From Phycisphaerae bacterium (GTDB lineage Bacteria > Planctomycetota > Phycisphaerae > JAAYCJ01): a stretch of 49,176 nt of DNA. Within the stretch, counting starts at the first letter, position 1; each line of letters begins with the position of its first letter. The stretch lies in the NCBI GenBank assembly GCA_012729815.1, contig JAAYCJ010000175.1, positions 1 through 49,176 on the forward strand. Direction: 5' to 3'. Positions 817 to 18,777 of the stretch are shown piece after piece. A program made the position numbers and the translations under genes. Under the pieces are notes generated by a model. The model saw nothing but the letters and a program-made list of their open reading frames with translations. It was not told the origin of the DNA and did no database searches.

Positions 817-823
817 GCCACCC

Positions 824-851: not shown

Positions 852-852
852 C

Positions 853-868
853 CTAAAAATGTTTTTAG
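853..868. promoter_or_regulatory. inverted repeat CTAAAAA-TG-TTTTTAG, probable operator
   Basis: A perfect 7-base inverted repeat with a two-base spacer lies directly upstream of the -35 box of the regulator gene. Position and symmetry suit a dimeric regulator, plausibly the GntR-type protein itself. There is no run of T on either side that would make it an obvious terminator. Confidence 0.45.
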
Positions 869-2503: not shown

Positions 2504-2546
2504 GAAGTCCGGGCCTTCGATCCAGAATTCTCCCTCCAGATTGTGC

Positions 2547-2570
2547 GGGGCGGCCCATCCGGACCGCCCC
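2547..2570. terminator. strong GC hairpin behind the PEP-CTERM gene
   Basis: GGGGCGGCCC-AT-CC-GGACCGCCCC folds into a stem of seven contiguous pairs, one C/A mismatch and two further pairs. It lies 48 bases after the PEP-CTERM stop and just before the truncated GH2 frame. No U-tract follows, so termination is plausible but not certain; it could also stabilise the upstream mRNA. Confidence 0.4.
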
Positions 2571-2617
2571 GCGTCTCGTCGATGATAGAAAAGGAAAGAG
2601 CTGGATTCCTTACTGTT

Positions 2618-3409
2618 TCACGACCTTCGCCGCAGCAGGGCCAACCCGCCGAGGGCGACCAGACCCATCGTCGCCGGTTCGGGCACCGGTTCGTACGTGA
2701 TCTTCAGGAAGGGAAGGTCGCCAGTGTTCGACGTTTCGGCGCTGGAGAAGTTGCTCCGGGTCTCGTTGTCGGCCCACGCACCGTCGCGGAGCAGGAAGCC
2801 GTAGTTCGGCAGCGCGCCGGTGTACCAGTCGTTCACGATGTCCGTCACGTCCCAAGAGACGGTGATCCCATTGTCGCTGGCAACGTTGATGGTCAGGCTG
2901 CTGGCGTGGTTGGTGGTGTAGTCCACTCCCTCCACCGGTCCGTCGGTGGTGTCGCCGCCCCACATCGTCGTATCATAGGCGAGGTAGCTCCAGCACACTT
3001 CCCCGGCCGCCGCCGGATTGCTGGCCCCGCTGCCCATGTCGGTGATTTCCCGTGTCATCGCATAGGCGGTGATGATCCGGTCCTCCGTTCCCTGGGCGGC
3101 TCGGAGAGTCAATCCCAACTCCGCACTGACGATGGTCGCGCCCAGCGGAACCTGATTCGCGCCGCTCCCGAAGATATCCTTCCATTGGGAGAACCCGACA
3201 AACTCCGCATCCTCAAGCTCCCAGCCGACACTGATGTCTGAAGACGCACCGTAGTTGTAGGTCTGCCTGCCGGCTTCCGATCGGATGCCTCCATCGACCA
3301 GACCGTCATAGCCGTTCAGGCCTTTCTCGAACCGGACCAGGGTCTCCTGCGCCCACGCGGGCGAGCAGACGATTCCCAACACCATCACCAAACCAACCAC
3401 TCTTTTCAT
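2618..3409 (-). CDS. secreted PEP-CTERM protein with DNRLRE-like domain
   Basis: 263 residues. A signal peptide (MKRVVGLVMVLGIVCSPAWA) is followed by an all-beta domain with the pattern of DNRLRE/CBM-type modules: conserved stretches read VSAELGLTLRA, VSWDVTDIVNDWYTG and NYGFLLRDG. The C-terminus is a textbook PEP-CTERM tail: the motif VPEPAT, a hydrophobic segment, then RRRS. Such tails are processed by exosortase for surface display; no exosortase gene is in the window. The start has a clear AGGAG 7 bases upstream. It lies between the lacI-type gene and the GH2 fragment on the same strand, suggesting one LacI-controlled unit. Surface localisation is well supported; the ligand is unknown. 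Confidence 0.85.
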   Translation of the reverse strand: MKRVVGLVMVLGIVCSPAWAQETLVRFEKGLNGYDGLVDGGIRSEAGRQTYNYGASSDISVGWELEDAEFVGFSQWKDIFGSGANQVPLGATIVSAELGLTLRAAQGTEDRIITAYAMTREITDMGSGASNPAAAGEVCWSYLAYDTTMWGGDTTDGPVEGVDYTTNHASSLTINVASDNGITVSWDVTDIVNDWYTGALPNYGFLLRDGAWADNETRSNFSSAETSNTGDLPFLKITYEPVPEPATMGLVALGGLALLRRRS

Positions 3410-3503
3410 CGTTCATCTCCTTCCACAACCAGTATGTCCCATGCTCTCACGCTGCGGACCGTCCGCCGCCGTGGAGGCTCTCTCCAACCTCAGGCTTCTC
3501 GCG

Positions 3504-4517
3504 CTATCCCGCTGATTCCCGAGGCACAAACTCCATGTCAATATCCACCCGTTGCGGAGGCAGGTCGGGATTCTCAAGCCGGCCGAAAAGCATCGTCGTC
3601 ACCCGGTGTGCCACCTGCTCGTCCCGGCGGTTGATGCTCGCCAGGGCCGGCGTGAGAAACCCCGAGTACGTACTGTCATTGAACCCCACCACCGCCACGT
3701 CGTGAGGCACACTCTTGCCGCGGGTCGCCAGCCACTTGCAGGCCGCCACCGCCGCCTCGTCCGTCCCGCACAACAGGGCGTCGAACGGAACGGAGGCCGG
3801 ACAGTGCGTCTCCAGTGCCTCCCACGCCACCTCGGCCATGTGCGTGGCGGGACGATGGCTCCGATGGCAGATCACCGGTTCATCCTGGTAGACGCAGCTC
3901 CGTTCCCGCAGGCGGGAGAGGAACGGATCGATCTTCTCCTCCCTCGGCGCCGGCGGCACGAGGATCATCGGCCGCCGTCGGCCCGTATCCAGCAGATGGT
4001 CCACCGCGTCATAGATGGCCTGACGGCGAGACAGGACCACCTGATCGGCGGTCGTCTCCAGCGGAAACGATGGAACCAATACCACCGCCCGGAAATGCCG
4101 GAACAGACCCTCGAACTTCTTGAGGGGCATGTTCGGGATGATTTGCACCACCGCCGCTTCGACGCCGCGTCGGATGTAGTCTCGCAACGCGTCCTGGACC
4201 ACGTCCGACTCGCAGAGGCTGTCGGAGAGCTGCGTGGCGTACTGGCGTTCATGGACCCCGCCGGCGATCATCCGCACCAGCTCGATGGGGCTGTGCGGGC
4301 CGCCCAGAGAGAAGAGGATTCCCACGGTCTGGGTCTTTCCGCCCTTGAGCCCACGGGCCAGGATGTTGGGCAGATAACCGAGCCGCTGGGCCGAGTCGGT
4401 AACCCGTTGCCGCAGCTCCTTGTCGTAACGCAGGTCATTCCGCAGGATGTTGCCCACCGTGGATACCGGGAGCTGAACGTCGTTGGCAATGTCCTTGATT
4501 CTGACCGGCGTTCCCAT
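3504..4517 (-). CDS. LacI-family transcriptional repressor
   Basis: 337 residues, normal for the family. The N-terminal helix-turn-helix (RIKDIANDVQLPVSTVGNIL) and hinge (NILARGLKGGKTQTVGILF) are followed by a periplasmic-binding-protein-like sensor with the usual late motifs (FDALLCGTDEAAVAACKWL, VAVVGFNDS). The divergent promoter region carries two copies of a TGA--ACGTGCTCA operator, one inside the promoter spacer and one over the start, so the gene very likely represses itself. The PEP-CTERM gene and GH2 fragment follow on the same strand and may share this control. Inducer unknown; a sugar is expected from the family. Confidence 0.92.
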   Translation of the reverse strand: MGTPVRIKDIANDVQLPVSTVGNILRNDLRYDKELRQRVTDSAQRLGYLPNILARGLKGGKTQTVGILFSLGGPHSPIELVRMIAGGVHERQYATQLSDSLCESDVVQDALRDYIRRGVEAAVVQIIPNMPLKKFEGLFRHFRAVVLVPSFPLETTADQVVLSRRQAIYDAVDHLLDTGRRRPMILVPPAPREEKIDPFLSRLRERSCVYQDEPVICHRSHRPATHMAEVAWEALETHCPASVPFDALLCGTDEAAVAACKWLATRGKSVPHDVAVVGFNDSTYSGFLTPALASINRRDEQVAHRVTTMLFGRLENPDLPPQRVDIDMEFVPRESAG

Positions 4518-4542
4518 GATTCCCTCAGAAGTCCGCGACGTG

Positions 4543-4556
4543 TGAGCACGTGCTCA
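4543..4556. promoter_or_regulatory. LacI-type operator O1, TGAGCACGTGCTCA
   Basis: A perfect 14-base palindrome with a central CpG, as is usual for LacI-family sites. It covers about +4 to +17 of the predicted transcript of the lacI-type gene and lies 26 bases before its start codon. Confidence 0.7.
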
Positions 4557-4566
4557 ACGTGCGTTC

Positions 4567-4595
4567 ATGGTATTTGATAACGTGCTCACTGTCAA
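4567..4595 (-). promoter_or_regulatory. promoter of the lacI-type gene
   Basis: On the minus strand TTGACA (4590-4595), 17 bases, TACCAT (4567-4572). The -35 is consensus. The whole spacer is occupied by operator O2, which explains how the repressor would block RNA polymerase. Confidence 0.6.
4575..4588. promoter_or_regulatory. LacI-type operator O2, TGATAACGTGCTCA
   Basis: Matches O1 at all but two of 14 positions. The two centres are 32 bases apart, close to three helical turns, so both sites face the same side of the DNA and could be bound cooperatively. Confidence 0.65.
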
Positions 4596-4604
4596 GCTTT
4601 TTCC

Positions 4605-4633
4605 TTGACTTTTGTCGCGAATGCAAAGATAAG
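4605..4633 (+). promoter_or_regulatory. promoter of the first prepilin-like gene
   Basis: TTGACT (4605-4610), 17 bases, GATAAG (4628-4633). It is divergent from the lacI promoter with ten bases between the two -35 boxes, so the O2-bound repressor could influence both. The -10 is weak. Confidence 0.4.
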
Positions 4634-4697
4634 AAACGTATGGAGTCTGGTTTGGTGCAACACTTGCACCAGGATGAAGCTAATACAGGACGTGGCA

Positions 4698-5588
4698 ATG
4701 CGTGATCTTCTTCATCTGGACAGTGGCCGAGTTCGTCAAGAGACCTGCCCGGCAAGAACATCTCGCCGGAAAGCGGTTCTATCCCCTCACAGGCGTTCCG
4801 ACACGAGCCTCCACCTAAGCCATTACCACGAATGCAGTTACAGCTTCACCCTGATCGAGATTCTGGTGGTGGCGGCGATCATCGCCGTGCTGACCGCGAT
4901 GCTGCTTCCGGCGCTGAGCGAGGCAAGGGAGAGCGCCCAGCGAGTGAAGTGCCTGAGCAACCAGAAGCAGATGGCCGTTGCGATGGTCGCCTATGCCGGG
5001 GAGTACAACGATCACTTTCCCCCCGGTAGCGATGGAATGAATGCCTCTTATACATTCCAAGTCGCCACTCGGGGAGAGTGGGACTGCCTGGGACACCTGA
5101 TCGAAACGGGTTTCATCACCGATCCGGAGCTATTGTACTGCCCCAGCCAGCGGGAGAAATGGTTCACCTATCCCTACGGCTGGGAAGAGACGTCGTATGG
5201 GACATACTATCGCTTCTGCGGCTACTTGTACCGGTTCTTCGGTGAGTATAAGAGCGAGTATCAGTATATCACGCCAGCCGAGATTCAGTGGCTTCAGACG
5301 GTGCAGTACGGCGCGCTGGAGTACCCGATCGCCGTGTCGTCGGACATTTTCATTCCGGACTACGGCGGCTGGGGCTTTGACTCCTGGCCGCACCTGAATC
5401 CGTACGGAGTGAGCGTCGCCTATTCGGATGGACATGCGGAATTCATCGACGTCGGACACACGGAGTATCTCCGAGCCGGGAGTCTTCCCTATTCCTTGAT
5501 TCACTACGATGATTTCGCGTTCCTTTTCTTCAAGGCGCTGGATCAGCGGGACTTTTCGACGTTGGCGGAGGCGTTTCCTCTGCCCTGA
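4698..5588 (+). CDS. prepilin-type protein with H-x-G C-terminal domain
   Basis: 296 residues from ATG 4698, chosen for the AGGA seven bases upstream; ATG 4674 is also possible. A long leader of about 50 residues precedes the class III prepilin motif [20 protein letters not shown], the N-terminal alpha helix of type II secretion/type IV pilin-like proteins. The residue before F is Ser rather than the usual Gly, which prepilin peptidases tolerate poorly to moderately. The C-terminus has the SDGHAEFID element common in planctomycete and Lentisphaera pilin-like proteins. Probably a surface or periplasmic pseudopilin; exact role unknown. The small prepilin-like gene follows 57 bases downstream. 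Confidence 0.8.
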
Positions 5589-5645
5589 GGTGTTGGTGGT
5601 TCAGAAAGGAGCCGGACGGTCGCGACGGACGCACGCGGGTAAGTC

Positions 5646-5957
5646 GTGAAGCTGCAACGCGATCGAGAGGAGGACGGACTCACCCTCATCGAGCTTCTGG
5701 TCGTGGTGGCAATCATCGCGGTGCTGGTTGCCCTTCTGCTTCCCGTCCTTGCCCTGTGCCTGCTGGTCCCGTCGGGGCATACCCGTCGAGAGACGTACGA
5801 CCGGGACGTCGCGCTGCAGAAACAAGCCGATGAACTTGCCGCACAGATCCAGGAGATGGATCGCAGGATTGCCGATGTTCGCGCGTTACTCGCCAATCTG
5901 GAATACGTTCAAAAGGGCAATCGCGAGCACCTGGACCAACTGAAAGACCCGCGGTAG
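5646..5957 (+). CDS. small prepilin-like protein with coiled coil
   Basis: 103 residues from GTG 5646. A short charged leader ends in Gly, then the class III prepilin sequence LTLIELLVVVAIIAVLVALL follows and continues as an extended hydrophobic run to about residue 42. After a short basic linker the remaining ~50 residues are strongly amphipathic (QADELAAQIQEMDRRIADV) and should form a coiled coil. It lacks the globular C-domain of its upstream neighbour. It may be a minor pseudopilin or an inner-membrane scaffold. The start is uncertain because no strong ribosome binding site is visible. Confidence 0.65.
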   Translation: MKLQRDREEDGLTLIELLVVVAIIAVLVALLLPVLALCLLVPSGHTRRETYDRDVALQKQADELAAQIQEMDRRIADVRALLANLEYVQKGNREHLDQLKDPR

Positions 5958-6117
5958 CAGGATCATCCCCGTTCTGGAGGCCGGTCCACCGTCTCGTTGC
6001 GTGAAAGGGAAGGAAACGACCTCGGCCCGGCTTGCGCTGCCCGCCGGCGTTGTCGTGAGGTCTGAGCAGACGAGTCCCCGCCACTCGCAATCCGGACGGT
6101 CGGTGAGGCAAGGAATT

Positions 6118-7008
6118 TCACGTCAGCCTGGCCTGTCGGCGGTAGTGGGCTGGGGCCAGGCCGGTGATCTTCTTGAAGAGCCGGGAGAAGTAGAACTCAT
6201 CGTCGAATCCGCACTGCCGGGCGACCCACTTGAGCGGCCGATCGGTGGTCAAGAGCAGCGTCTGGGCGTGCTCCATCTTGCGGCGGTTGACGTACTGGAT
6301 GGGCGGCAGGCCCATGAGCCGGCCGAAAAGGTCTGAGAAATACGCCGCGTTCAGTTCCGCCAACTCCGCCAGTTCCGCCAGCGCGATCGGTGAGGCCAGG
6401 TTCTGCTGGATGTGCTCCAGGACACGGTCGAATCGCCGCAGCCCTTCCAGCGTGTTGGAAACGCTGGAAGGCGAATGGACGCTCAGAAAGGGCGCCAGCA
6501 GCAGCCGCAGGAGGGCATTGGTCTCCAGATGCTGGGCGGCGGTCTTGTCCTGATCGAGCTGTCGGCTCTGGTTGAGAACGGATCGGTAAATCGGCTGGTT
6601 GGCGTCACGCTCGCGCAGCTCCCGGCCGGGATTGATTGCCCGAAGCCGGTCGAACAGCTTGCGGCTGATCCCGTGCTCGCGAGCGGCGACCTCGCGGCCG
6701 CAGCCGAGCGTCGTCAGTAGATCCGTGCCGTTGGGCAGCCGGGTCGTCAAGTGTATGTAGTAGTGATCGAAGCTCCGCGGACAAAATAAGTCCACGCGGG
6801 TGAAGCACGGGATCAACACCATCCGGCCCGGAATCAGGTGAATGGTCCGCCGCGGCGAATGGCAGTCGATGAACCCTTCGCCGCCGGTGATCAGATACAG
6901 CCGGCTGTACGGACTGCTGACGTTCCGGTGCCGCCACTCCGTGTGCACCCGGTAGTGCTCGATGTTCAGAAGGTCGATTTCGATCAGGTCCAACAGCCGT
7001 TTAAGCAT
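6118..7008 (-). CDS. AraC-family transcriptional regulator
   Basis: 296 residues. The N-terminal half is a cupin-like sensor (SRLYLITGGEGFIDC, then TIHLIPGRMVLIPCFT). The C-terminal ~100 residues contain two helix-turn-helix units, ending with the family signature (WVARQCGFDDEFYFSRLFKK, then ITGLAPAHYRR). The start of the first HTH carries a small in-frame repeat of Ala-Glu-Leu (three copies). It is transcribed away from the aldo/keto reductase and alcohol dehydrogenase genes and most likely activates them in response to a sugar. The start has no good Shine-Dalgarno sequence. Confidence 0.92.
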   Translation of the reverse strand: MLKRLLDLIEIDLLNIEHYRVHTEWRHRNVSSPYSRLYLITGGEGFIDCHSPRRTIHLIPGRMVLIPCFTRVDLFCPRSFDHYYIHLTTRLPNGTDLLTTLGCGREVAAREHGISRKLFDRLRAINPGRELRERDANQPIYRSVLNQSRQLDQDKTAAQHLETNALLRLLLAPFLSVHSPSSVSNTLEGLRRFDRVLEHIQQNLASPIALAELAELAELNAAYFSDLFGRLMGLPPIQYVNRRKMEHAQTLLLTTDRPLKWVARQCGFDDEFYFSRLFKKITGLAPAHYRRQARLT

Positions 7009-7051
7009 GAGCCCAGTCTATCCGCATTTCCAAAGAATATCCATGCTTTCG

Positions 7052-7064
7052 ATGGATAATCCAT
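7052..7064. promoter_or_regulatory. palindrome ATGGAT-A-ATCCAT between araC-type gene and reductase
   Basis: A perfect 6-base inverted repeat. A further ATCCAT half-site lies at 7039-7044. The palindrome overlaps GATAAT (7055-7060), a good -10 match for the rightward genes with no matching -35, as expected for an activator-dependent promoter. Confidence 0.45.
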
Positions 7065-7067
7065 AGC

Positions 7068-7084
7068 CCGACCGTACCGGTCGG
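7068..7084. promoter_or_regulatory. inverted repeat CCGACCG-TAC-CGGTCGG
   Basis: Perfect 7-base arms, 3-base spacer, 34 bases before the reductase start. It may be a second operator or a hairpin in the leader of the rightward transcript. It is unlike the adjacent ATGGAT palindrome, so two different factors are possible. Confidence 0.4.
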
Positions 7085-7118
7085 CGTCTAATGAAGTTTT
7101 TGGCGGAGCCTCTGACCA

Positions 7119-8147
7119 ATGACGAGCTTTGCGCTGGACTATGATGCGGTTGATCCCGCTGGGATCCCCTCCAAAACCCTCGATACCGGAGCCCGGATTC
7201 CCGTCATCGGGCTCGGCACGTTCGGTTCGGACCGGTACTCAGCCGGGCAGGTGGCCGACGCGGTCCGAGGCGCGTTGCGGGTCGGCTACCGGCACATCGA
7301 CTGCGCCTCGGTCTACGGCAACGAGGAGGAGGTCGGCAAGGCGTTACAGGAAGCTCTCGCAGCGAACCTGAGACGCGAGGATCTCTGGATCACCTCAAAG
7401 CTCTGGAACGACATGCACGGCCCGGACGATGTCCTGCTCTCGTGCGCCAGGTCGCTTCGGGATCTGCGGCTCGACTACCTCGATCTGTACCTGATCCACT
7501 GGCCCTTTCCCAACTACCATCCGCCCGGCTGCGACGTCCTCAGCCGCAGCAAGAACGCCCAACCGTACATCCATGAAAACTACATGAATACGTGGCGGCG
7601 GATGGAGCGGCTGGTTGAGATGGGTCTGGTCCGCCACATCGGCACGTCCAACATGACCGTTGCCAAGCTGAAGCTGCTTCTGCGGGACGCGCGGATCAAA
7701 CCCGCGTGCAACGAGATGGAGCTGCACCCGCATTTCCAGCAGCCTGAGTTGTTTCAGTTCTGTCTGGACCATCGAATCCAGCCGATCGGCTACTGCCCGA
7801 TCGGCTCACCCAACCGCCCGGAGCGCGATCGAACGCCGGACGACACCTCGCCGATCGACGATTCGGTCGTGGTCGAGATCGCCCGCCGGCACAATCTGCA
7901 TCCGGCGGTGATCTGCCTCAAGTGGGCCGTTCAGCGGGGCCAGATCCCCATCCCCTTTTCCGTCACGCGGGCCAAGTACCTCAGCAACCTGCGAGGCGTG
8001 ATCAGCGATCCGCTGACGGCCCAGGAAATGCAGGCGATCGCCGGCATTGATCGCCGCTGCCGGCTGATCAAGGGACAGGTGTTTCTCTGGAAGGCCGGTC
8101 AGTGCTGGGAGGATCTTTGGGACGTAGACGGCCAAATCGCCACATGA
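7119..8147 (+). CDS. aldo/keto reductase
   Basis: 342 residues, a TIM-barrel NADP-dependent oxidoreductase. The start of the barrel (IPVIGLGTFGSDRY) and the catalytic tetrad are visible: Asp61 (GYRHIDCASVYGNE), Tyr66, Lys94 (WITSKLWN) and His127 (LYLIHWPF). The cofactor-binding C-terminal part is present (IPIPFSVTRAKYLSNL). It would reduce an aldose or keto-sugar or oxidise a sugar alcohol. It is followed after 25 bases by a zinc alcohol dehydrogenase on the same strand and is divergent from an AraC regulator, indicating a two-gene sugar or polyol catabolic operon. Confidence 0.92.
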   Translation: MTSFALDYDAVDPAGIPSKTLDTGARIPVIGLGTFGSDRYSAGQVADAVRGALRVGYRHIDCASVYGNEEEVGKALQEALAANLRREDLWITSKLWNDMHGPDDVLLSCARSLRDLRLDYLDLYLIHWPFPNYHPPGCDVLSRSKNAQPYIHENYMNTWRRMERLVEMGLVRHIGTSNMTVAKLKLLLRDARIKPACNEMELHPHFQQPELFQFCLDHRIQPIGYCPIGSPNRPERDRTPDDTSPIDDSVVVEIARRHNLHPAVICLKWAVQRGQIPIPFSVTRAKYLSNLRGVISDPLTAQEMQAIAGIDRRCRLIKGQVFLWKAGQCWEDLWDVDGQIAT

Positions 8148-8172
8148 TCGATCGTATGAAGGACATGAAACG

Positions 8173-9246
8173 ATGAATACCAGGATGCAAGGCGCGGTTC
8201 TTCCCGGCAACAGCACGGTGGAACTCAAGGAATTCGACATACCCTCGCCCGGCCATGGCGAGGTGCTGATCCGCATGAAGTCGTCGACGATCTGCGGCTC
8301 GGACATCCGCTGCATCTACCATCAGCATCTCGGCAAGGGGCCGGAAGGCTATCAGCCGGGGATGATAGCCGGCCACGAGCCCTGCGGGCAGATCGTCGAG
8401 TGCGGGCCGGGCTGCCGGCGGTTCCATCGCGAAGATAGGGTGATCGTCTATCACATCTCCGGCTGCGGTGTCTGCAACGACTGCCGCCGCGGGTACATGA
8501 TCTCGTGCACCAGCGAGACGTACCGTCGGGCCTACGGCTGGCAGCGGAACGGCGGAATGGCTGAGTATCTCCTGGCCGAGGAGAAGGACCTGGTCCTGCT
8601 GCCCGAGCGGCTGACCTACAGCGACGGCGCTCAGGTGGCGTGCGGGTTCGGCACGGTCTACGAGGGCCTGGAGAAAATCGGCATCAGCGGCAACGACGAC
8701 GTGCTGGTGACGGGCCTGGGGCCGGTGGGTCTGGCGACGGCCATGCTGGCCAGGGCGATGGGCGCCCGCCGGGTCGTCGGCATCGAGGTGACCGCCGAAC
8801 GCATCCAGATCGCCCGTTCGTTAGGGCTCTTCGACGAGGTCCTGTCTGCCGGTTCCGATAATGTCGCCCAGGTCCGCGAGCTGACCGGCGGCCACGGCGT
8901 GGAAAAGGCGGTTGACTGCTCCGCCAACGACCGGGCCCGCCTGACCTGCATACAGGCCGCCCGCAAGTGGGGCCGGATCGTATTCCTCGGCGAAGGCGGC
9001 ACTTGTAGCTTCCAGCCGTCGCCGGACATTATCCACGACCAGAAGACCATCTACGGCTCGTGGGTGACGAACCTCTGGCGGATGGAGGAACTGGTCGAGC
9101 GGCTGGTGCGATGGGGCCTGCACCCCGACCGGCTCATCACCCACCGTTTCCCGCTGGACAAAGCCGGCGAGGCCTACGCCCTGATGGCCGGCGGTCGATG
9201 CGGCAAGGTCGCGGTCGTCTTTGACGAGGAGTTGGAGAAGGCCTGA
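8173..9246 (+). CDS. zinc-dependent alcohol (polyol) dehydrogenase
   Basis: 357 residues, medium-chain dehydrogenase family. Catalytic zinc ligands Cys41 and His68-Glu69 (IAGHEPCG) and the four structural-zinc cysteines 98, 101, 104 and 112 are all present. The Rossmann motif reads VTGLGPVGLATAM. Closest in style to L-iditol/threonine-type dehydrogenases. It probably works in sequence with the aldo/keto reductase just upstream, interconverting a sugar and its alcohol or keto form. A GAAGGA lies at suitable distance before the ATG. Confidence 0.92.
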   Translation: MNTRMQGAVLPGNSTVELKEFDIPSPGHGEVLIRMKSSTICGSDIRCIYHQHLGKGPEGYQPGMIAGHEPCGQIVECGPGCRRFHREDRVIVYHISGCGVCNDCRRGYMISCTSETYRRAYGWQRNGGMAEYLLAEEKDLVLLPERLTYSDGAQVACGFGTVYEGLEKIGISGNDDVLVTGLGPVGLATAMLARAMGARRVVGIEVTAERIQIARSLGLFDEVLSAGSDNVAQVRELTGGHGVEKAVDCSANDRARLTCIQAARKWGRIVFLGEGGTCSFQPSPDIIHDQKTIYGSWVTNLWRMEELVERLVRWGLHPDRLITHRFPLDKAGEAYALMAGGRCGKVAVVFDEELEKA

Positions 9247-9694
9247 TCGACCAGAACCAGAAGCCCCACTCTTTCACACAGATTGCCGCCGCAACGATTT
9301 ATAGGACGCCGCAGCTCCTATCCGTCCCGGTCGTTGTCCGAGCATCCATGACCGTTCCACCTTGACTCCTGCGCCCGGTCGGTTATAGTGGACGTATAAG
9401 GTGTCCGGGAGAGAGCGGGTTCTTCCCGGCCCTCTTATAGGCGCGTCCAAAGGTATCCATGAGAGGGATACTCAGCCTTGGAAGAAGGGGAAGCGAGTGC
9501 GTCCATCGTTGATCAGTCACGCTTATACTCTCCTGCATGTCATTGTCAGCCCGCCTATACTAGGTTGTTGCGGGGATCTGCGATCCTCAAGCGGGTCCAT
9601 CGCATGTTCCAAAGTCACTTCGGCGTAATCTTCGCCTGGTTTTTCTTGTCCGCGGCGGCCCAAGTCGTCGCCTGAGCTTTTGAAAGGAGAGGCG
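9247..9694. other. long leader region before the C25 protease
   Basis: Nearly 450 bases. A promoter is visible at 9362-9389, which would give an untranslated leader of about 300 bases. Within it are a short GGG-TTCTT-CCC hairpin near 9417-9430 and a small open frame (9478-9675) whose last 20 residues are hydrophobic and which ends 19 bases before the protease start. I cannot show that this small frame is real. No riboswitch class I know fits. Confidence 0.4.
9362..9389 (+). promoter_or_regulatory. promoter upstream of the C25 protease
   Basis: TTGACT (9362-9367), 16 bases, TATAGT (9384-9389). Both boxes are one mismatch from consensus. Confidence 0.55.
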
Positions 9695-12600
9695 ATGGAT
9701 TGCGGGGCTGGTCGAGGAGCGTTTGCCGGGTCGATTGTGGCGGCGGTTGCCGTTCTGCTGGGGTGTTGGACCCCGGCACAGGCGGCTGAGCTATCGGGTG
9801 ACCTGTGGTCGACGGAGTTTTCCGTCTCAGGCTTTGAGGGGACGGTGCGGATGGCCACCGGCCCGGAGGGCCTGGACGTGGTCGACGTGGACGGCCTGCC
9901 ATTGGGCGGCGAGCCGGGCGAGCCGCTACTGCCCTACTACCAGGTGAAGGTGCTGCTGCCCGCGGACGCGGACTTGAGCCAGATTCAGGCATGGGCGGTG
10001 GATGAGGAATGGTCGCCGATGCACGGCGGCTATGACATCGCGCCCGCTCCGCCCGCGGTGACGTGGGACGGGACGATGCCGATCATCGACTGGGGCAGGA
10101 AGAACAAGGCCAGGATTCGTAACGGGAAAGACGTGGCGATCTACGCGCGAAACGCTGACTTTCCCGCCGCTGCGGTGGAGGTTGTCTCGACGGGCGAGTA
10201 TCGGCAGTGGAAAGTGGCTGAGGTTCGCATCTGGTGCGCCAAGTTCAACCCGGCCGGCAGAGCGGTTCACGTTCTGAACGGAGCGCAGATCGCCGTCGCC
10301 GCGCCGCGAACGGGAGAACTGCCGAGCATGCCAGCGGCATCCGGTGTCGAAACCGACCCGTTTCTGATGCTCGATGAGATCATCAATCCCCAGGACGCCG
10401 CGCTGCCGGCTGAATCCTCGTCGCCGCCTCCGGCCGCGGGCACGGCGGCGGACTACGTGATCATCACCACCAGCACGATCCAGAGCACCAGTTCAAATCT
10501 ATCGAGCTTCATTACAAACCTGCAGGCCTGCGGCCATGCGGTCAAGGTCGTCACCGAAGGGACGTCGGCGGACGACACCCACTACGTCACCGGTACATCA
10601 TGCTACAGTCGGGCCGACAATATCCGCTCGTGGCTCGGCTCGCACTGGACCACCGACGGCATCTCGTACGTCCTGCTGATCGGCGACCCTCATCCCACGA
10701 CATTCACTTCAAACCAGTCGATCCCAATGCGGATGTGCTACCCGCGCCCCGGGGCGGACGTTCCGACGGACATGTACTTCGCTGAGTTGAGCGGCAACTG
10801 GAACCTCGACAGCGACGGATACTACGGGGAGTACAGCGGCGACTACGGCACGGGCGGGGCCGACAAGTACTGCGAATTGATGGTCGGCCGGATCCCCTAC
10901 TACGGGTCCACCACCGACCTGGACAGCATTCTCCAGAAGTGCATCAATTACACGCAAAGCTCCACGCGGGCGTGGCGGAGCAAGGTCCTCATCCCGACCG
11001 CGATATCCAACCACGGACCCCAGGACAACAACGGCGACGGTGACGCCAGCGACTCGGGAATTGATTACCCCTACACCAGTTGGCGTACCTTCGGGGCCGA
11101 CTGGGGCGAGGCGATCAAGTCGCTGGCCTCGAGCGCCGGCTTCAGCGCCTACACCCTCTACGAAAGAACCGGCGTCTACTCCAACGGCTCAGCCTATCCG
11201 CTGACCTCCTGCAATGCGGCCCTGACCACCACCAACATCGTCAACGAGTGGCAGAACACCTACGGGTTTGTCACGTGGTGGGCTCACGGCAGTCAGACCG
11301 GCGCGTCGCGGTTCTGCTGGACCTCGGATGGCAGCTACACCAACATCTGCGGCAATGCGTCGCCGCACAAGGAAACCACATGGTACACCATGTTCAGTTC
11401 GAGCGACTGCAGCTCGCTGAACGATTCGTACCCCTCGTTCGCGGTCCTGGTCTCCTGCCTCAACGGCTACCCGGAGAACTCGGGCAATCTGGGTTACAGC
11501 CTGCTCAAACAGGGCGCCATCGGCACGTTTTCGGGCAGCCGCGTGACCTGGTACGCCATCGGGTCGTGGAACACCTCGCGAGGCGGCTCGTACGGCGACA
11601 ACGCCTCCTACGCCTACCGCATCTTTAATCGGATGTCGGCGGCGACCCCGGACACCGCCGGAGCGGCCCTGGTCTGGTGCCGGTCCAATTTCGGATTGGG
11701 TTGGGGCGACGCGTCCTGGATGAACATGCTGGACTTCAACCTCTACGGCGACCCGGCGCTTTCGCGACTGACCAGTCCGGCCCCGCAGGTCTACAGCATC
11801 AATCCGAACACCGGAGCGGCCGGAAGCACCGTGAACATCAATCCGATATCCGGCGCGTATTTCCAGACCGGGGCGACGGTCATGCTGGCCATGCCCGGCC
11901 AACCGAACATTAGCGCCACCGCGGTGACCGTTGTGAATTCGTCCACGATCACCTGCACGTTCAACCTGGCAGGGGCCACGCCCGGCGCCTGGAACGTCGT
12001 GGTGACCAATCCCGACACCCAGTCGGGCACGCTGGCCGGCAGCTTCGCGGTGACCGGTCAGTTCACCGACATCGGCGCCGCGCTGGCCGGCGTGGCATAC
12101 TGCGACGTGGATTGGGGCGATTACGACAACGACGGGTTGCTCGACCTGGCGCTCGCGGGCGACACCGGAGCGGGATATGTCACCAAGGTTTACCGCAACC
12201 TGGGCGGCGCGAGCTTCACGGACATCGGCGCGCCGCTGCCGGGGATCACGCACACTTCGCTGGCCTGGGGCGACTACGATGGCGACGGCAACCTCGACTT
12301 GGCCCTCTGCGGGCTCGACAACGGCCTCATGCCAATCAGCCGGGTCTATCAGGGCGACGGAGCGGGCAACTTCATCGACGCTGGTGCGGGCCTGATCGGC
12401 GTCCAGGATGGCTCGGTCGACTGGGGCGATTATGACAACGACGGCGACATGGACCTCGCCCTGACCGGATATGATGCCGCGGGCGTTCCGTTTGCCATCG
12501 TCTACCGCAACGACGGCGGCGGCGCGTTCACGGACATTGGCGCCGCCTTAATCCCCGTCGGACTTTCGGAAGCCGTCTGGGGCGACTACGACAACGACGG

Positions 12601-13651
12601 CGATCTGGATCTGGCCCTGGCCGGACGAGACGCCGCCGCCAACCCGGTGACCCGACTCTTTCAGAACAACGGCGGCGTGTTCATGGACAGCGGCGTTCCT
12701 TTCGTCCTGGCCGATTCCTGCCTGATGGCCTGGGGCGATTACGACTACGACGCCGATCTGGACCTGGTCGTGGCCGGGGCCGCCGGAGGCATTGACAGCA
12801 CGATCCTCTACGACAATCAACTTGCCGTCTTCCCCAACACCGGAGTGGCCTTCACCGGCGTGAGCAACGGCGACGTGGCCTGGGGCGATTATGATAATGA
12901 CGGCGACATCGACATCGCCCTGACCGGTGCAGCCGGCGGCGTACCTTACACCACACTCTACCGCAACGACTTCGTCACCTTCACCGCGATGGGCATGGGG
13001 CTTGCGGCGATGATGGACTCAGCCGTCGCCTGGGGCGACTACGACAACGACGGCGATCTGGACCTGGCTCTAGCCGGCTTCAGCGGCAGTGCGTTCCAGA
13101 GCAAGATCTACCGCAATGGCGCGACGGCGCCCAATACGCCTCCTGCGGCGCCGATGTGGTCACTTCCGCCAACGGTGTCCTGGAACAAGATGACGTTCAG
13201 TTGGAATCCCGGCACCGATATTGAGACGCCGCAGGCCGGATTGTCGTATAACCTGCGGTTGGGAACGGCTCCGGGCGGACAGGACGTGACGCCCGCGATG
13301 GCCGACCCAACCACCGGTTTCCGCCGCGTTCCGGCCCTCGGCAACGTCCAGGAGAACCTGCAGTGGTCGGTGATTGTCCACGTGCCCGGCACCTACTACG
13401 TGAGCGTGCAGACGGTCGATGCGGCCCTGGCCGGTTCGCCATGGGCGTCCGAACAGCCGGTCGTGGTGCCGCCGATTCCCGGCGACGCCGATCATGACGG
13501 TTCGGTGGACGTTGGCGATCTGGCCATTCTGGCCAGTAATTACGGAACGACCAGCGGCATGGGTTGGGCCGACGGCGACTTCAATGGTGACGGAGCGGTC
13601 GGCGCGGGCGACCTGGCCATCCTGGCCAGCAACTATGGCCAATGTCTTTGA
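9695..13651 (+). CDS. secreted peptidase C25 (gingipain-like) with FG-GAP repeats and dockerin
   Basis: 1318 residues from ATG 9695, which has AGGAG upstream; a TTG 15 bases earlier is less likely. Order: signal peptide; N-terminal prodomain-like region (PLGGEPGEPLLPYYQVKVLL is typical of C25 proteins); caspase-like C25 domain with catalytic His531 (WWAHGSQTG) and Cys588 (VLVSCLNGYPEN); an IPT/TIG Ig-like domain (VYSINPNTGAAGSTVNI); seven FG-GAP/VCBS-like repeats, each with a calcium-binding WGDYDNDGD-LDLALAG core; a fibronectin-III-like domain; and a type I dockerin with two DxDxDGxVDxxDLAIL duplicates at the C-terminus. A large exported cysteine endopeptidase, probably anchored through the dockerin to a cohesin encoded elsewhere. 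Specificity (Arg, Lys or other) is not readable. Confidence 0.93.
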   Translation: MDCGAGRGAFAGSIVAAVAVLLGCWTPAQAAELSGDLWSTEFSVSGFEGTVRMATGPEGLDVVDVDGLPLGGEPGEPLLPYYQVKVLLPADADLSQIQAWAVDEEWSPMHGGYDIAPAPPAVTWDGTMPIIDWGRKNKARIRNGKDVAIYARNADFPAAAVEVVSTGEYRQWKVAEVRIWCAKFNPAGRAVHVLNGAQIAVAAPRTGELPSMPAASGVETDPFLMLDEIINPQDAALPAESSSPPPAAGTAADYVIITTSTIQSTSSNLSSFITNLQACGHAVKVVTEGTSADDTHYVTGTSCYSRADNIRSWLGSHWTTDGISYVLLIGDPHPTTFTSNQSIPMRMCYPRPGADVPTDMYFAELSGNWNLDSDGYYGEYSGDYGTGGADKYCELMVGRIPYYGSTTDLDSILQKCINYTQSSTRAWRSKVLIPTAISNHGPQDNNGDGDASDSGIDYPYTSWRTFGADWGEAIKSLASSAGFSAYTLYERTGVYSNGSAYPLTSCNAALTTTNIVNEWQNTYGFVTWWAHGSQTGASRFCWTSDGSYTNICGNASPHKETTWYTMFSSSDCSSLNDSYPSFAVLVSCLNGYPENSGNLGYSLLKQGAIGTFSGSRVTWYAIGSWNTSRGGSYGDNASYAYRIFNRMSAATPDTAGAALVWCRSNFGLGWGDASWMNMLDFNLYGDPALSRLTSPAPQVYSINPNTGAAGSTVNINPISGAYFQTGATVMLAMPGQPNISATAVTVVNSSTITCTFNLAGATPGAWNVVVTNPDTQSGTLAGSFAVTGQFTDIGAALAGVAYCDVDWGDYDNDGLLDLALAGDTGAGYVTKVYRNLGGASFTDIGAPLPGITHTSLAWGDYDGDGNLDLALCGLDNGLMPISRVYQGDGAGNFIDAGAGLIGVQDGSVDWGDYDNDGDMDLALTGYDAAGVPFAIVYRNDGGGAFTDIGAALIPVGLSEAVWGDYDNDGDLDLALAGRDAAANPVTRLFQNNGGVFMDSGVPFVLADSCLMAWGDYDYDADLDLVVAGAAGGIDSTILYDNQLAVFPNTGVAFTGVSNGDVAWGDYDNDGDIDIALTGAAGGVPYTTLYRNDFVTFTAMGMGLAAMMDSAVAWGDYDNDGDLDLALAGFSGSAFQSKIYRNGATAPNTPPAAPMWSLPPTVSWNKMTFSWNPGTDIETPQAGLSYNLRLGTAPGGQDVTPAMADPTTGFRRVPALGNVQENLQWSVIVHVPGTYYVSVQTVDAALAGSPWASEQPVVVPPIPGDADHDGSVDVGDLAILASNYGTTSGMGWADGDFNGDGAVGAGDLAILASNYGQCL

Positions 13652-13949: not shown

Positions 13950-15149
13950 ATGGTCGAACGCCAGCACAATGACGCTTACTACGTCAATTACGCCGATTTC
14001 TTTGACGGTCTCAAGCCGGCCGCAGGCCAGGAGAAGCTGCCGCTGAGGGTTTCCGGCGTCTCGCACCGCAAGGTATACGAAACACCCGAAGGCCCCAAGT
14101 GGAGCTGCTGGACCAGCCTGATGCAGTGGCCCGACGGCCGCCTGCGGGTGCTCTTCAGCAACATCGAAGGCACCTTCGACGGGCTGGAAAAGGGGTACCA
14201 CTGGGAATACCTGACCCCCCTGCCGAAGGAAATGAGACGCGGCTGGCTGTCCCTGGACTCGGCCGACGGCGGCCGGTCGTGGCAAAAGCAGAGGTTCTAC
14301 GACTGGTCCGACAGCACCAAATCGCTCGTGCTGCCGGCGCTGGCCCTGGACAATCGGACGCTGCTCGGAATCGGCGGACGGTGGTCCACGTGGGATATCG
14401 AGAAAAACAACTACCACTTCTACGGCGAGATCGCCTCCGTACGATCGACCGACGACGGACAGACCTGGAGCGAGCCGGTGGCGGTGAACGATCCGTCTCA
14501 CAGCCTCCTGGTCTGGTGCCATCCGATCCGCCTGTCGGACGGTACGGTCGTGCTGCCCGCCTACGGCTGTCTGGACCATCCCGACCCCGCCAGCGGTACG
14601 ATCTCTCCGGCCACTGACGCGGTGCTGTTCTTCTCAAGCGACAGCGGCCGCTCGTGGTCCGCTCCGCTGGTGGTCGCCCGCGGCCTGCCTGATCGGTCCA
14701 ACGACGAACCGGAGGCGGTCGAACTGGCCAACGGCGACATTCTCGTGGTGATCCGCCACGCGAACCCGCAGGCGACCGGGGCGGAGGTCTATCTGAACTG
14801 CGGCCAGGTCGTCGTCCGCAAGACTGCCGACGGCTGGAAGGCGGGTCCGTGGACGACCACGCCGATGGGCTTTCGCGGCTTTCCCGCCCTGCTCCGGACG
14901 GCCGACGACGTCCTGGTCTGCGCGGGCTCGGGCAATCAGTTCAACTTCAGCCTCGACAATGGACAGACGTGGAGCCAGACGCTGCAACTGGGTGATCCGG
15001 CGGTCAACCGCCACAACCACTACCCTCGGCTGGTCGAAACCGCTCCGGGCCGGGTGCTGTCGGTCTACCACGTCGGCAACCACTGGCCCTACCCGCCGCC
15101 AGAAGACGAGTGGATCCACGCCACCGAACTGCATCTGGAGAGAGTCTAG
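13950..15149 (+). CDS. BNR/Asp-box sialidase-superfamily protein
   Basis: 399 residues with a good AGGAG upstream. Four Asp-boxes of the form S-x-D-x-G-x-(S/T)-W are visible (SADGGRSW, STDDGQTW, SSDSGRSW, SLDNGQTW), marking a six-bladed beta-propeller of the sialidase/neuraminidase superfamily. No signal peptide is evident, so it appears cytoplasmic. Arginines in the first blade and a late HNHYPRL stretch could be active-site residues, but I cannot show the full sialidase Arg triad, so the enzymatic activity is open. A second BNR gene lies at 17223-18329 on the other side of the DUF4838-like gene. Confidence 0.82.
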   Translation: MVERQHNDAYYVNYADFFDGLKPAAGQEKLPLRVSGVSHRKVYETPEGPKWSCWTSLMQWPDGRLRVLFSNIEGTFDGLEKGYHWEYLTPLPKEMRRGWLSLDSADGGRSWQKQRFYDWSDSTKSLVLPALALDNRTLLGIGGRWSTWDIEKNNYHFYGEIASVRSTDDGQTWSEPVAVNDPSHSLLVWCHPIRLSDGTVVLPAYGCLDHPDPASGTISPATDAVLFFSSDSGRSWSAPLVVARGLPDRSNDEPEAVELANGDILVVIRHANPQATGAEVYLNCGQVVVRKTADGWKAGPWTTTPMGFRGFPALLRTADDVLVCAGSGNQFNFSLDNGQTWSQTLQLGDPAVNRHNHYPRLVETAPGRVLSVYHVGNHWPYPPPEDEWIHATELHLERV

Positions 15150-15199
15150 GTAGCCATGGAAAGACATCCAGGCGGTGTCCCCTCATGGGATTCTCGTCC

Positions 15200-15227
15200 T
15201 TGATCAACTAGATCGCGCTACTACAAT
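15200..15227 (+). promoter_or_regulatory. promoter of the DUF4838-like glycosidase gene
   Basis: TTGATC (15200-15205), 16 bases, TACAAT (15222-15227). The -35 lies in the palindrome TTGATCAA. The gene starts about 100 bases downstream. Confidence 0.5.
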
Positions 15228-15330
15228 GACGTGCTGATCCTTTAGCCGGTTGGTCTCGTGGGACGACCACTCGGCCGACACCATCCGGTTTCGGATTCGA
15301 CTCAAAGTGTGATTCAGGCGGAGCGGCAAC

Positions 15331-17157
15331 ATGTCACAGAAGAAGGGCATGTGGATGATCGAGCCGCAGCGGTCGGATGATCCGGTCATCGCGTTCGCAT
15401 CTGAGGAGTTGAACCGCTACCTTTGTGCGATGGGCGTTCAGGAAGGCCCGCGGTTCGACCTGTGGATTGAATGCCCCGAAGCAATAGGCCTGCGCGAAGA
15501 CGGGTTCCGGATCGAGTCCGAGGCGGCACGGGTCATCATCCGCGGCGCCGGCCCGCGCGGTGTGCTCTATGGCGTATACGCATTCTTGGAGCTTCAGGGC
15601 TGCCGGTGGATCGGCCCGGGCGACGAGGTCGTGCCGCAGCGGACGGTGGTGGAACTTCCCAAACGCCCGATCATCGAAGAGCCCGCGTTCGCGATGCGGG
15701 GGCTGATCGACGCCACGTGCTTCGGTGACCAGTTTACCCTCTCCCAGATCGACTGGTCGGCCAAGATGCGTTTGAATACGTATCACCCTCAGTGGACGAT
15801 CGAGTCGTGGGGCCGGGGCGCCCATAGCCACTGGATGCCCGAGTTCCGCAAGCGGGGGTTTCTAATCCAAGCGGGGGCCCACGACCTGATGTCGCTGCTG
15901 CCGCGAACCGAACGTAACGTAGCCGAGCGTCCGGAGTACTTCCGTCTCAAGAACGGACAACGCACCGGCGATCACAATCTCTGCACCGCCAGCCGCGAGG
16001 CCTTGGGGGTGATCCAATCCAACTTCCGGCGGATTGTCGAGGCGTGTCCCGAGATCGTGATCTGGCACGCTTGGCCGGACGACCTTCCCGGCGGCGGCTG
16101 GTGCGAGTGCGACCGGTGCCGCGCCCTTTGCCCGGCGGACCAGTCGTTACGAGTAAGCAATGCACTGGCCGAAGTGCTCGAGGAAATGGGCTCGCCGGCA
16201 AAGGTCAGTTTCATTGCATATCATGACACTGTCTGCGAACCGATGACGGTGCGCCCGCATCCCAAGGTCGTCGCCCTGCTGTCGCTGACAGAGCGGTGCG
16301 AAGTACACGGCATTGGTGGGTGCCTACGATGCGAGAGCTACCGTCGCCAGGCTGAGCAGATCCGCGAGGCGGGCTTCGCCGATGTGCTGACCTTCGAGCG
16401 GTACATCGACTCGTTCAAGTTCCGTTGGATGCAGCCGGTCACGCCAAGGGCGATCTTCGACGACGCTCGGCACTTTGCCGGCTGGGCCAGGCGGCCGTTG
16501 GCCCACCAGTGCTTCGTGATCATGGCCCGCGAGTGGCATGCCGCCTATCCAAACTACATGCTCTTCGCCCGCGCGGTTTGGAACCCGAACGCGGACCCGA
16601 ACGCCCTGCTTGAGGACTTCTGCCAACACTGGTACGGCCGGGCGTCCGAACCCATGCTGAAGTATCACCGGGCGATGGTCGAGTTGTTCGAACTGGCCCT
16701 GGTCGGCTGCCAGTACGTCGGGAGCAAAGGCGGCTCGCTGCTGCTCGAGCCGCTCGATACGAGCGATCGGTTCGCCCTGGAGCACGCGAGCCGGATCGAG
16801 CAGGCCCAGTCGAGGCAGAGCAATTGCCGACTGCTGCTGGAGACGGCCGCAAGCGAGGTCGGTGACGACGAGGTCCTGGCCGATCGCATTCGCAGCGAGA
16901 TGGATATCCTGCGAATCACGGACATCGAACTGGAGGGTCTCCGCCAGGCTGTACTCGGGACACACCACCGGGCGGTTTTCCTGGATGGCGGCGGTCAGGA
17001 GCACCGCGAAAAGGCCCGGCAGGCCCTGGAGCGGGTCCTATCGTGGGAACGCGAGTACCGACGATTCATCCGTACGATCGGTCTGAACGACGAGCCGAAT
17101 TGGTACGTCGACTGGCTCTGCAAAGAGATCGGAAAACGCCTGGCCGACGTGACATGA
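15331..17157 (+). CDS. DUF4838-family putative glycosidase
   Basis: 608 residues. The N-terminal domain resembles the GH20/GH67-type beta2 domain (RVIIRGAGPRGVLYGVYAFL, then GCRWIGPGDEVVP). The central TIM-barrel-like part carries the cysteine-rich CECDRC motif and a conserved acidic REWHAAYPNYM segment. These are features of proteins annotated DUF4838, which are thought to be glycoside hydrolases related to GH67 glucuronidases. No signal peptide. GGAG precedes the ATG. It sits between two BNR propeller genes, suggesting joint action on one glycan, perhaps carrying acidic sugars; that substrate is inference only. Confidence 0.78.
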   Translation: MSQKKGMWMIEPQRSDDPVIAFASEELNRYLCAMGVQEGPRFDLWIECPEAIGLREDGFRIESEAARVIIRGAGPRGVLYGVYAFLELQGCRWIGPGDEVVPQRTVVELPKRPIIEEPAFAMRGLIDATCFGDQFTLSQIDWSAKMRLNTYHPQWTIESWGRGAHSHWMPEFRKRGFLIQAGAHDLMSLLPRTERNVAERPEYFRLKNGQRTGDHNLCTASREALGVIQSNFRRIVEACPEIVIWHAWPDDLPGGGWCECDRCRALCPADQSLRVSNALAEVLEEMGSPAKVSFIAYHDTVCEPMTVRPHPKVVALLSLTERCEVHGIGGCLRCESYRRQAEQIREAGFADVLTFERYIDSFKFRWMQPVTPRAIFDDARHFAGWARRPLAHQCFVIMAREWHAAYPNYMLFARAVWNPNADPNALLEDFCQHWYGRASEPMLKYHRAMVELFELALVGCQYVGSKGGSLLLEPLDTSDRFALEHASRIEQAQSRQSNCRLLLETAASEVGDDEVLADRIRSEMDILRITDIELEGLRQAVLGTHHRAVFLDGGGQEHREKARQALERVLSWEREYRRFIRTIGLNDEPNWYVDWLCKEIGKRLADVT

Positions 17158-17222
17158 AAGGCCCGTCGGATCAACCTGCCTTCGGTGAGAATCGTGCGTT
17201 TTGCTGAAGGCGACGGAATCGC

Positions 17223-18329
17223 TTACGGCAGGCGCCAGCGCGACCAGAGGATGGCGCAGTTCTTGTGCTCGTGGTCGGCCCGCTGGTAGTAAACAGTGAA
17301 GATTTCCCCGGAGGGTAGCTCGATCGAAGCCGGATAGCCGTGGTCGCGGGGTGGAGCGTCGTCGCGAAGGATGTACTCATCCGACCAGACTGCCCCTTCG
17401 TCTCGGCTGATGATCACCCGGTGGCCCAGCGGCGGCTTGCGGTAGGAATAGACGCACACCACCGCGCCCGACGAGTGGCGGATCAGGTGCGGCGGCGAAC
17501 CGTACCGGCGCAGGTCTTTGGCCGGCGACCAGGTCTTGCCGCCGTCCTCGGATTCGGTCTGAAACAGGCTGAAACTGATGTACTTCTCGTTGGGACGCTT
17601 CGCATATTCATAGCGGATCATTCCGAGGAGCTTGCCGGACGGCAGCTCAACCATGTGCGGTTCGTGGAAGTTGTCCGGATGGGTGTCATCCGCCAGCGGC
17701 ACGCGCCCCAGCGTAGTCCAGGTCTTGCCGTCATCGGTACTGCGACAGGCGAGAATCTGGCCGATGGGTTCCACCCCGTGAAAGGGAAACTCCTTGCCCA
17801 AATAGAGCAGCGAACCGTCGGCCAGACGGATCGGCCCGTGCGGAGCCGAAACGGGAACCGGATAGAAGTCGGACCACGCGCAGCCGTCGGAACTGGTCCG
17901 CACCCAAGACCCCTGCCACTTGCGAACCACCTCATCGGACCAGGTGTCGAATACCGCCTGCCAGCGGGCGATCTCGTCGTCCGAAAGCTTGTAGCTCTCC
18001 CTGGCCCACGCAAAGAGGCTGCGAACGTCGTAGACGAACCACGAGACCAGCAGCCTCTCGCCGCCGAGCGAAATAATCCCCGCGTCGCGGTCGTCCAACG
18101 GCGTGTTGTTGATGACGTTCGGACCGATCCACGTCCTGCCTTCATCCGTCGACTCGAAGATCGAGGTTTTGCCCCACGGGCAGACGTGGTCGAAACGCGG
18201 GCCGGACGCGGCCGCCACCAGCTTGCCGGAGGCGGTCCGGGCCACCGACGGCCAACCGAAATAGCCGTGGCGGTCGTCAGGAAGGAAGCAAACGGTACCG
18301 TGCTCGGCGGAAAGACGCTGCTCGGACAT
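17223..18329 (-). CDS. second BNR/Asp-box sialidase-superfamily protein
   Basis: About 368 residues from ATG 18329, chosen because AAGGATCG stands just upstream and the frame before it has no family character. Asp-boxes are STDEGRTW, SSDGCAWS (degenerate), STDDGKTW, SEDGGKTW and SRDEGAVW. The last third is typical of exo-alpha-sialidase-like family proteins (EPHMVELPSGKLLGMIRYEY, later YPASIELPSGEIFTVYY). No signal peptide. It is convergent with the DUF4838-like gene. Sialidase, glucuronidase-like or lyase activity cannot be told apart here. Confidence 0.85.
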   Translation of the reverse strand: MSEQRLSAEHGTVCFLPDDRHGYFGWPSVARTASGKLVAAASGPRFDHVCPWGKTSIFESTDEGRTWIGPNVINNTPLDDRDAGIISLGGERLLVSWFVYDVRSLFAWARESYKLSDDEIARWQAVFDTWSDEVVRKWQGSWVRTSSDGCAWSDFYPVPVSAPHGPIRLADGSLLYLGKEFPFHGVEPIGQILACRSTDDGKTWTTLGRVPLADDTHPDNFHEPHMVELPSGKLLGMIRYEYAKRPNEKYISFSLFQTESEDGGKTWSPAKDLRRYGSPPHLIRHSSGAVVCVYSYRKPPLGHRVIISRDEGAVWSDEYILRDDAPPRDHGYPASIELPSGEIFTVYYQRADHEHKNCAILWSRWRLP

Positions 18330-18367
18330 GGGACGATCCTTTCTGGACAAAGGCCTACGTTGGACGG

Positions 18368-18395
18368 ATTCTACGCTCCGCGACCACGGAATCAA
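18368..18395 (-). promoter_or_regulatory. promoter of the second BNR gene
   Basis: On the minus strand TTGATT (18390-18395), 16 bases, TAGAAT (18368-18373). The predicted start is about 32 bases before the ATG at 18329. Confidence 0.55.
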
Positions 18396-18398
18396 GGG

Positions 18399-18412
18399 CG
18401 AGAACGTTCTCG
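18399..18412. promoter_or_regulatory. perfect 14-base palindrome CGAGAACGTTCTCG
   Basis: It lies four bases upstream of the -35 box of the second BNR gene and 34 bases before the -35 of the rightward Lrp-like gene. The central AACGTT core is characteristic of LacI-family operators. It is unlike the ACGTGC core of the repressor at 3504-4517, so a different LacI-type protein is expected. Confidence 0.55.
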
Positions 18413-18445
18413 ACATGCCGGCAACCAAACCGGATCGAGCAGTCG

Positions 18446-18474
18446 TTGACCCTCGCCGGCACGCCGGGTAGACT
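18446..18474 (+). promoter_or_regulatory. promoter of the Lrp-like gene
   Basis: TTGACC (18446-18451), 17 bases, TAGACT (18469-18474). It precedes the ATG at 18508 by a normal distance. Confidence 0.5.
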
Positions 18475-18507
18475 GGGGCCAAAACACAATCGACGGAGGA
18501 TGCGGAC

Positions 18508-18777
18508 ATGGTGACGGCGATCATTATGGTCAACGTGCGGCGAGACGCGGTCAACGAGACGGCACAGAAGATCCTCGAAATGGAAGGGGTCTCCGAGGTC
18601 TACTCGGTGGGCGGCGAATGGGATCTGGTGGTGATGGTGCGGGCCAAATCCAACGAGCAGCTCGCCGACGTCGTGACCAGCCGCATGCTCAAACTCGACG
18701 CGATCACCAAGACCACCACCATGATCGCGTTCCGAACCTACAGCCAGTACGACCTGGAACGGATGTTCAGCATGTAA
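18508..18777 (+). CDS. stand-alone Lrp/AsnC ligand-binding (RAM) domain
   Basis: 89 residues, essentially only the alpha/beta ferredoxin-like effector domain of Lrp/AsnC regulators (VSEVYSVGGEWDLVVMVRAK then TKTTTMIAFRTYSQYD). The DNA-binding helix-turn-helix is absent, and a clear GGAGG before the ATG shows this is the true start. Stand-alone domains of this type form rings and bind amino acids; they may modulate full-length Lrp proteins. dnaJ lies 90 bases downstream with its own promoter. The target is unknown. Confidence 0.88.
   Translation: MVTAIIMVNVRRDAVNETAQKILEMEGVSEVYSVGGEWDLVVMVRAKSNEQLADVVTSRMLKLDAITKTTTMIAFRTYSQYDLERMFSM

Follow-up and report, generated by a model that had tools for sequence, protein, structure and literature searches.

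The analyzed window, a DNA stretch of 49,176 nt, contains a gene for a multidomain peptidase with the following features (residues are numbered from the Met encoded at 9695).

9684..9689, + strand, Shine-Dalgarno-like AAGGAG upstream of the ATG at 9695, read off the sequence
9695..13651, + strand, whole gene, an open reading frame of 1318 aa plus stop
9695..9787, + strand, putative signal peptide with probable cleavage near AQA, a sequence reading
9788..10339, + strand, predicted gingipain-type N-terminal prodomain (Foldseek to RgpB/Kgp prodomains; Propeptide_C25 weak, 10.4 bits)
10454..11761, + strand, Peptidase_C25 catalytic domain (113.4 bits; 113.8 bits for the isolated domain)
11285..11287, + strand, catalytic His531, motif AHGS, invariant in the 12-protein alignment
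11456..11458, + strand, catalytic Cys588, motif VSCLNG, invariant in the same alignment
11783..12046, + strand, probable IPT/TIG Ig-like domain (18.1 bits, E 0.0027, below the curated cut-off)
12050..13117, + strand, seven FG-GAP repeats, predicted to form one seven-bladed propeller (FG-GAP_3, 79.8 bits, 7 stretches)
13127..13465, + strand, fibronectin-III-like spacer, matching no Pfam model, conserved with UASB270
13475..13642, + strand, C-terminal type I dockerin with two F-hands (24.4 bits, Pfam cut-off 22.9)

The gene is real, and its product is 1318 amino acids long. The first possible start of the frame is a TTG at 9680; since AAGGAG precedes the ATG at 9695, the ATG is the correct start, and the coordinates of the preliminary description hold (counted from the TTG, the catalytic dyad would be His536/Cys593). 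The leader of the protein looks like a Sec signal peptide with AQA at its end, within which LLGC could be an alternative, weak lipobox. Genes for AraC, an aldo-keto reductase and an alcohol dehydrogenase lie upstream, two BNR-repeat (sialidase-like) genes and a DUF4838 gene lie downstream (13950-18554), and no cohesin adjoins the C25 gene in the window.

Membership of the protein in family C25, as proposed in the preliminary description, is firm. Peptidase_C25 matches in the genome search with E 1.9e-32 (Pfam cut-off 23) and equally well when the catalytic domain is searched alone. The domain is absent from the full-length hmmscan listing of the protein, so routine annotation could miss it; we rejected this absence as a case against C25, both other searches being strong. 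The dyad residues His531 and Cys588, named earlier, are exact in that numbering and invariant in the alignment A1 of 12 C25 proteins (the window's and 11 relatives from the class). The A1 profile matches gingipain R (1cvr, E 1.9e-57), Kgp (E 2e-34) and PorU (6za2, E 1.5e-20) in PDB, while the narrower, six-row profile A2, unlike A1, gives no match there. In NCBIfam, too, the window protein matches PorU, though weakly. Window positions 11288-11440, between the catalytic His and Cys, contain an insertion of some 25 residues, two of them Cys, which is longer than in the 11 aligned relatives.

The AlphaFold2 model of 9788-12064 (36 sequences, pLDDT 82.3) matches gingipain R (1cvr, Foldseek E 4e-19), which suggests a gingipain fold. 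The same model matches the prodomains of RgpB and Kgp (4ief/5mun, Foldseek E 3e-9 to 7e-8); Foldseek reports these matches with no aligned range, and the prodomain is thus placed at the N-terminus as probable, this placement being supported by Propeptide_C25, which is at or above its cut-off in three relatives (L133, L148 and L145).

The IPT domain of the preliminary description is retained as a weak TIG match, below the cut-off of 20.9 bits, in a region that is beta-rich in the AlphaFold2 model. It is followed by the FG-GAP units, spaced 50-52 residues. Their number, seven, agrees with the preliminary description, but near-identity is restricted to the WGDYDNDGD motif, as the units share 34-60% identity in protein (mean 44%) and 56-76% in DNA (mean 65%), and TRF finds no tandem array over them. 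Recent duplication of the repeats is rejected on these grounds, and their likeness is that of a calcium-loop motif rather than of recent copying. Seven units correspond to one full propeller. The propeller model, which shows repeated beta units with pLDDT blocks mostly of 72-90 and was built from two sequences only, has CRTAC1 (E 1e-11) and integrin alpha chains as its best solved matches (Foldseek), consistent with the repeats closing into a single propeller. As for the suggested fibronectin-like domain, the segment is conserved (FG-GAP repeats and spacer together are 44% identical to a protein of Bacterium UASB270), but it fits no Pfam model and its structure model is of low confidence.

The dockerin identity of the C-terminus, claimed earlier, is firm, the Dockerin_1 score being above its cut-off. 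The domain reaches 29.6 bits in a further search and matches a solved dockerin (2y3n, E 1.4e-5). Pfam finds 8 dockerins in the genome, and a dedicated profile finds 10 of the window's type; the total is at least 12 domains once those of contigs C226 and C282 are added. Comparison of types, made by pairwise identity alone, shows that the window dockerin shares 64-70% identity with those of contigs C322, C172 (two) and C73. It is poorly alike to the cohesin-linked dockerin of C226, which in turn finds all four of its best matches among cohesin-linked dockerins from other genomes. The peptidase domains on dockerin proteins of this genome are C25 (window), C39_2 (C226 and C282) and M6 (C340), that is, several dockerin-bearing peptidases are present, as in a 'planctosome'-like system. 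The dockerin protein of C73 carries CotH and lamin-tail (LTD) domains.

Five of the 10 window-type dockerins (C322, C172 (two), C84 and C289) stand directly before a PEP-CTERM anchor, hence the dockerin is not the sole anchor of those five proteins; sorting by PEP-CTERM is likely in this genome, given its three exosortase genes. A separate observation concerns contigs C54 and C159 (L057:3119-6178 and L058:1971-5078), which encode a pair of dockerin proteins that may contain a beta helix. Their C-termini contain HG...DSC-like motifs resembling clan CD peptidases, with the His seemingly lost in C54; Pfam gives no support for clan CD-like C-termini here.

Among 150 related genomes, 36 have C25 proteins. 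Of 52 C25 frames studied from the class, 18, the window's included, carry a dockerin according to a locally built profile, and several further frames end in a dockerin-like manner without being called. Hence C25-dockerin enzymes are common in related planctomycetes, and the window protein is a variant on a known theme. What was described as an uncommon combination is so only as the whole five-part architecture, seen in complete form in the window protein alone. Its relatives belong to Phycisphaerae/Sedimentisphaerales. The nearest one (L131, Sedimentisphaerales, 71% identity) has no FG-GAP repeats and ends in a pair of dockerin-like calcium loops. In the UASB270 protein (L148), C25 is combined with the same spacer and seven FG-GAP stretches, and the chain ends where the dockerin would start. 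These two indicate that the parts are shuffled modules. L133 has C25 and FG-GAP on a contig ending short of the C-terminus. A possible second case of the full architecture, G063 C18 with its seven DxDxDGxxD motifs, was discarded, as Pfam assigns SdrD-B and no FG-GAP to it. A scan of 84,980 species with A2 yielded 58 C25 loci in many phyla. Some C25 relatives stand under archaeal labels (L140, Ca. Harpocratesius; L138, L183, L184 and L186), one of them belonging to the Asgard archaea; these five gave no dockerin call.

The genome contains one cohesin (C226:23350-23712, 41.8 bits, and 85.7 bits with a class-specific profile), on a contig other than that of the C25 gene. Thus, the outcome that the preliminary description had set as a refutation, no cohesin together with a dockerin below threshold, is not what the genome shows. 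The cohesin lies in a frame of 1281 residues (L003:219-4064). It begins with a signal peptide, followed by the cohesin, a Pro/Asn/Asp linker, a putative Cys-containing transmembrane segment and basic residues; a further stretch resembling a signal peptide then precedes a dockerin, Peptidase_C39_2 and a TolB-like end. This frame may represent a single protein or two fused genes. With a single cohesin in the genome, there is no tandem-cohesin scaffoldin of the cellulosome kind. In adaptor scaffoldins, the protein's own dockerin is not known to bind its own cohesin. Since the C226 dockerin differs in type from that of the enzyme, the C226 cohesin is a fitting, yet unproven, receptor for the enzyme's dockerin.

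The best comparative support for tethering, and the only direct one, is a single case, the operon-like gene order apparent in G001 (WFQY01000476; L052 = L144), a member of Phycisphaerae from the same family. A gap of 38 bases separates its C25-dockerin gene (206-6139) from a cohesin gene (6178-6780) immediately downstream, and a second cohesin gene (6777-8492) overlaps the first; both cohesin proteins have a C-terminal hydrophobic Cys-containing tail. The G001 dockerin looks unlike the window's. Adjacency of cohesin and C25 genes was rejected as a general rule, as only 1 of the 52 C25 frames studied from the class has a cohesin gene in its fetched flanks. Two neighboring cohesin genes recur in other cohesin-bearing relatives (L109, L118, L104 and L111), and in two of them, L109 and L118, the first gene is short and encodes a cohesin with a transmembrane tail at its C-terminus, while the next is a cohesin-dockerin gene.

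Across the 150 relatives, dockerins are present in 121 genomes and cohesins in 21, or 26 with the class-specific profile. The association is modest: cohesins occur in 25/121 dockerin-bearing genomes versus 1/29 others (Fisher p 0.028, kinship ignored), and in 5 of the 12 genomes with a C25-dockerin protein versus 26/150 overall (Fisher p 0.036, kinship ignored). The remaining 96 dockerin-bearing relatives, and 7 of those 12, have no recognizable cohesin. Either cohesins have diverged past the profiles, or many dockerins bind something else; the gain from 21 to 26 suggests that cohesin absence may be a matter of poor sensitivity.

Our proposal, which we consider evenly balanced, is that the window protein is a peptidase zymogen retained at the cell surface, probably as part of an assembly of peptidases resembling the 'planctosome'. 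The enzyme would be a secreted family C25 cysteine protease, made as a zymogen and exported by its signal peptide. The gingipain-type prodomain would keep it inactive until removed. The D-x-D-x-D-G loops of the propeller should bind calcium, and its seven blades may present a substrate- or surface-binding face. The C-terminal dockerin would hold the enzyme in the cell envelope via calcium-dependent docking. As its likeliest partner we infer, and this is above all the conjectural step, the anchored cohesin protein of the genome, with its C39-type peptidase and its dockerin of another type. The C25 protein would then supply one of the catalytic arms in a cohesin-dockerin assembly that is rich in peptidases and of the 'planctosome' kind. 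The earlier view of an exported planctomycete protease without gingipain-type sorting is supported by its Phycisphaerae/Sedimentisphaerales relatives and by the lack of a C25-family PorU sortase in the genome, where the window protein is the sole C25 protein. The claim of a cohesin-based complex is strengthened by the genomic cohesin and by G001; as to the assembly itself, a surface complex holding the C25 protein is plausible, with about an even chance. Tethering is unproven: the location of the cohesin on another contig, the 96 of 121 cohesin-less relatives and the PEP-CTERM anchors beside half of the window-type dockerins count against it.

The same excess of dockerins agrees with a different explanation, in which the dockerin acts as a surface or matrix tag specific to the genome, and a receptor other than a recognizable cohesin retains or cross-links many exported proteins. 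The likeness of the dockerins within this genome fits it, as do G100, G034 and G088, each with its own repeated dockerin type. Still, the rapid divergence of cohesins, seen in the gain obtained with the class-specific profile, and the presence of a cohesin in the window's genome weaken this explanation, and we regard it as rather unlikely. Its extension to Planctomycetes in general, with dockerins as a genome-wide surface-sorting tag of an own type per genome, a receptor that is mostly not a recognizable cohesin, and the C25 protease as one cargo, is unlikely to a somewhat greater degree.

It is also conceivable that the protease is simply secreted or lipid-anchored, as the LLGC of its leader could be read, and that its dockerin is a partnerless calcium-binding tail with a stabilizing or dimerizing role. 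In UASB270 the C25, FG-GAP and Fn3-like core ends without a dockerin and is thus independent of it. However, unrelated exported proteins, both in this genome and across the class, repeatedly end in dockerins, which points to a shared function, and L131, itself devoid of FG-GAP, has a dockerin-like calcium-loop pair at its end; we consider such a tail improbable. Least probable, and in our opinion very much so, is a processing enzyme maturing other surface proteins as an analog of the sortase PorU, and not a nutritional peptidase: the PorU matches and the uniqueness of the C25 protein in the genome agree with it, but gingipain R is a far better match than PorU (E 1.9e-57 versus 1.5e-20), and the FG-GAP propeller and the dockerin are foreign to PorU.

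Under the preferred reading of a tethered zymogen, a gingipain-type peptidase joins the proposed non-cellulosomal peptidase complexes of planctomycetes. The idea of a proteolytic cohesin-dockerin system is not new, as precedents have been described (PMC8542988, PMC6461901); the additions are a C25/FG-GAP member and the gene order of G001, where two anchored cohesin genes come directly after that of a C25-dockerin protein, making this genome a good place to test such complexes. Moreover, why dockerins are so numerous in the class and recognizable cohesins so few is a testable question.

With the gingipains RgpB and Kgp of Porphyromonas gingivalis (MEROPS C25) the window protein shares the C25 fold as modeled, the His-Gly and Cys-x-Asn-Gly motifs, a predicted N-terminal prodomain and a probable Ig-like domain C-terminal to the catalytic one. 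Unlike them, it has a longer insert between His and Cys, and in place of the type IX secretion C-terminal domain it has an FG-GAP propeller and ends in a dockerin. The UASB270 protein shares C25, the seven FG-GAP stretches and the Fn3-like spacer, and differs by InlB-like repeats between C25 and FG-GAP and by the lack of a dockerin.

A dockerin-bearing C25 peptidase has been reported together with a cohesin scaffoldin in Ca. Stygibacter (Cloacimonadota), sharing the signal peptide, the C25 domain, the C-terminal dockerin and cohesins in the same genome; it differs in its phylum and in the large tandem-cohesin scaffoldin, and the consulted part of that report does not mention an FG-GAP propeller (PMC8542988). 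The 'planctosome', a proteolytic cohesin-dockerin complex, has been proposed for Nemodlikiaceae (Phycisphaerae), with M12B and M14 peptidases, an adaptor combining cohesin and dockerin, and a lamin-tail anchor (PMC6461901). The peptidases of the window's genome are of families C25, C39 and M6 instead, and its LTD protein carries a dockerin, no cohesin having been found in it. Still, the likeness is that this genome, too, encodes a protein with both cohesin and dockerin and an LTD/CotH dockerin protein.
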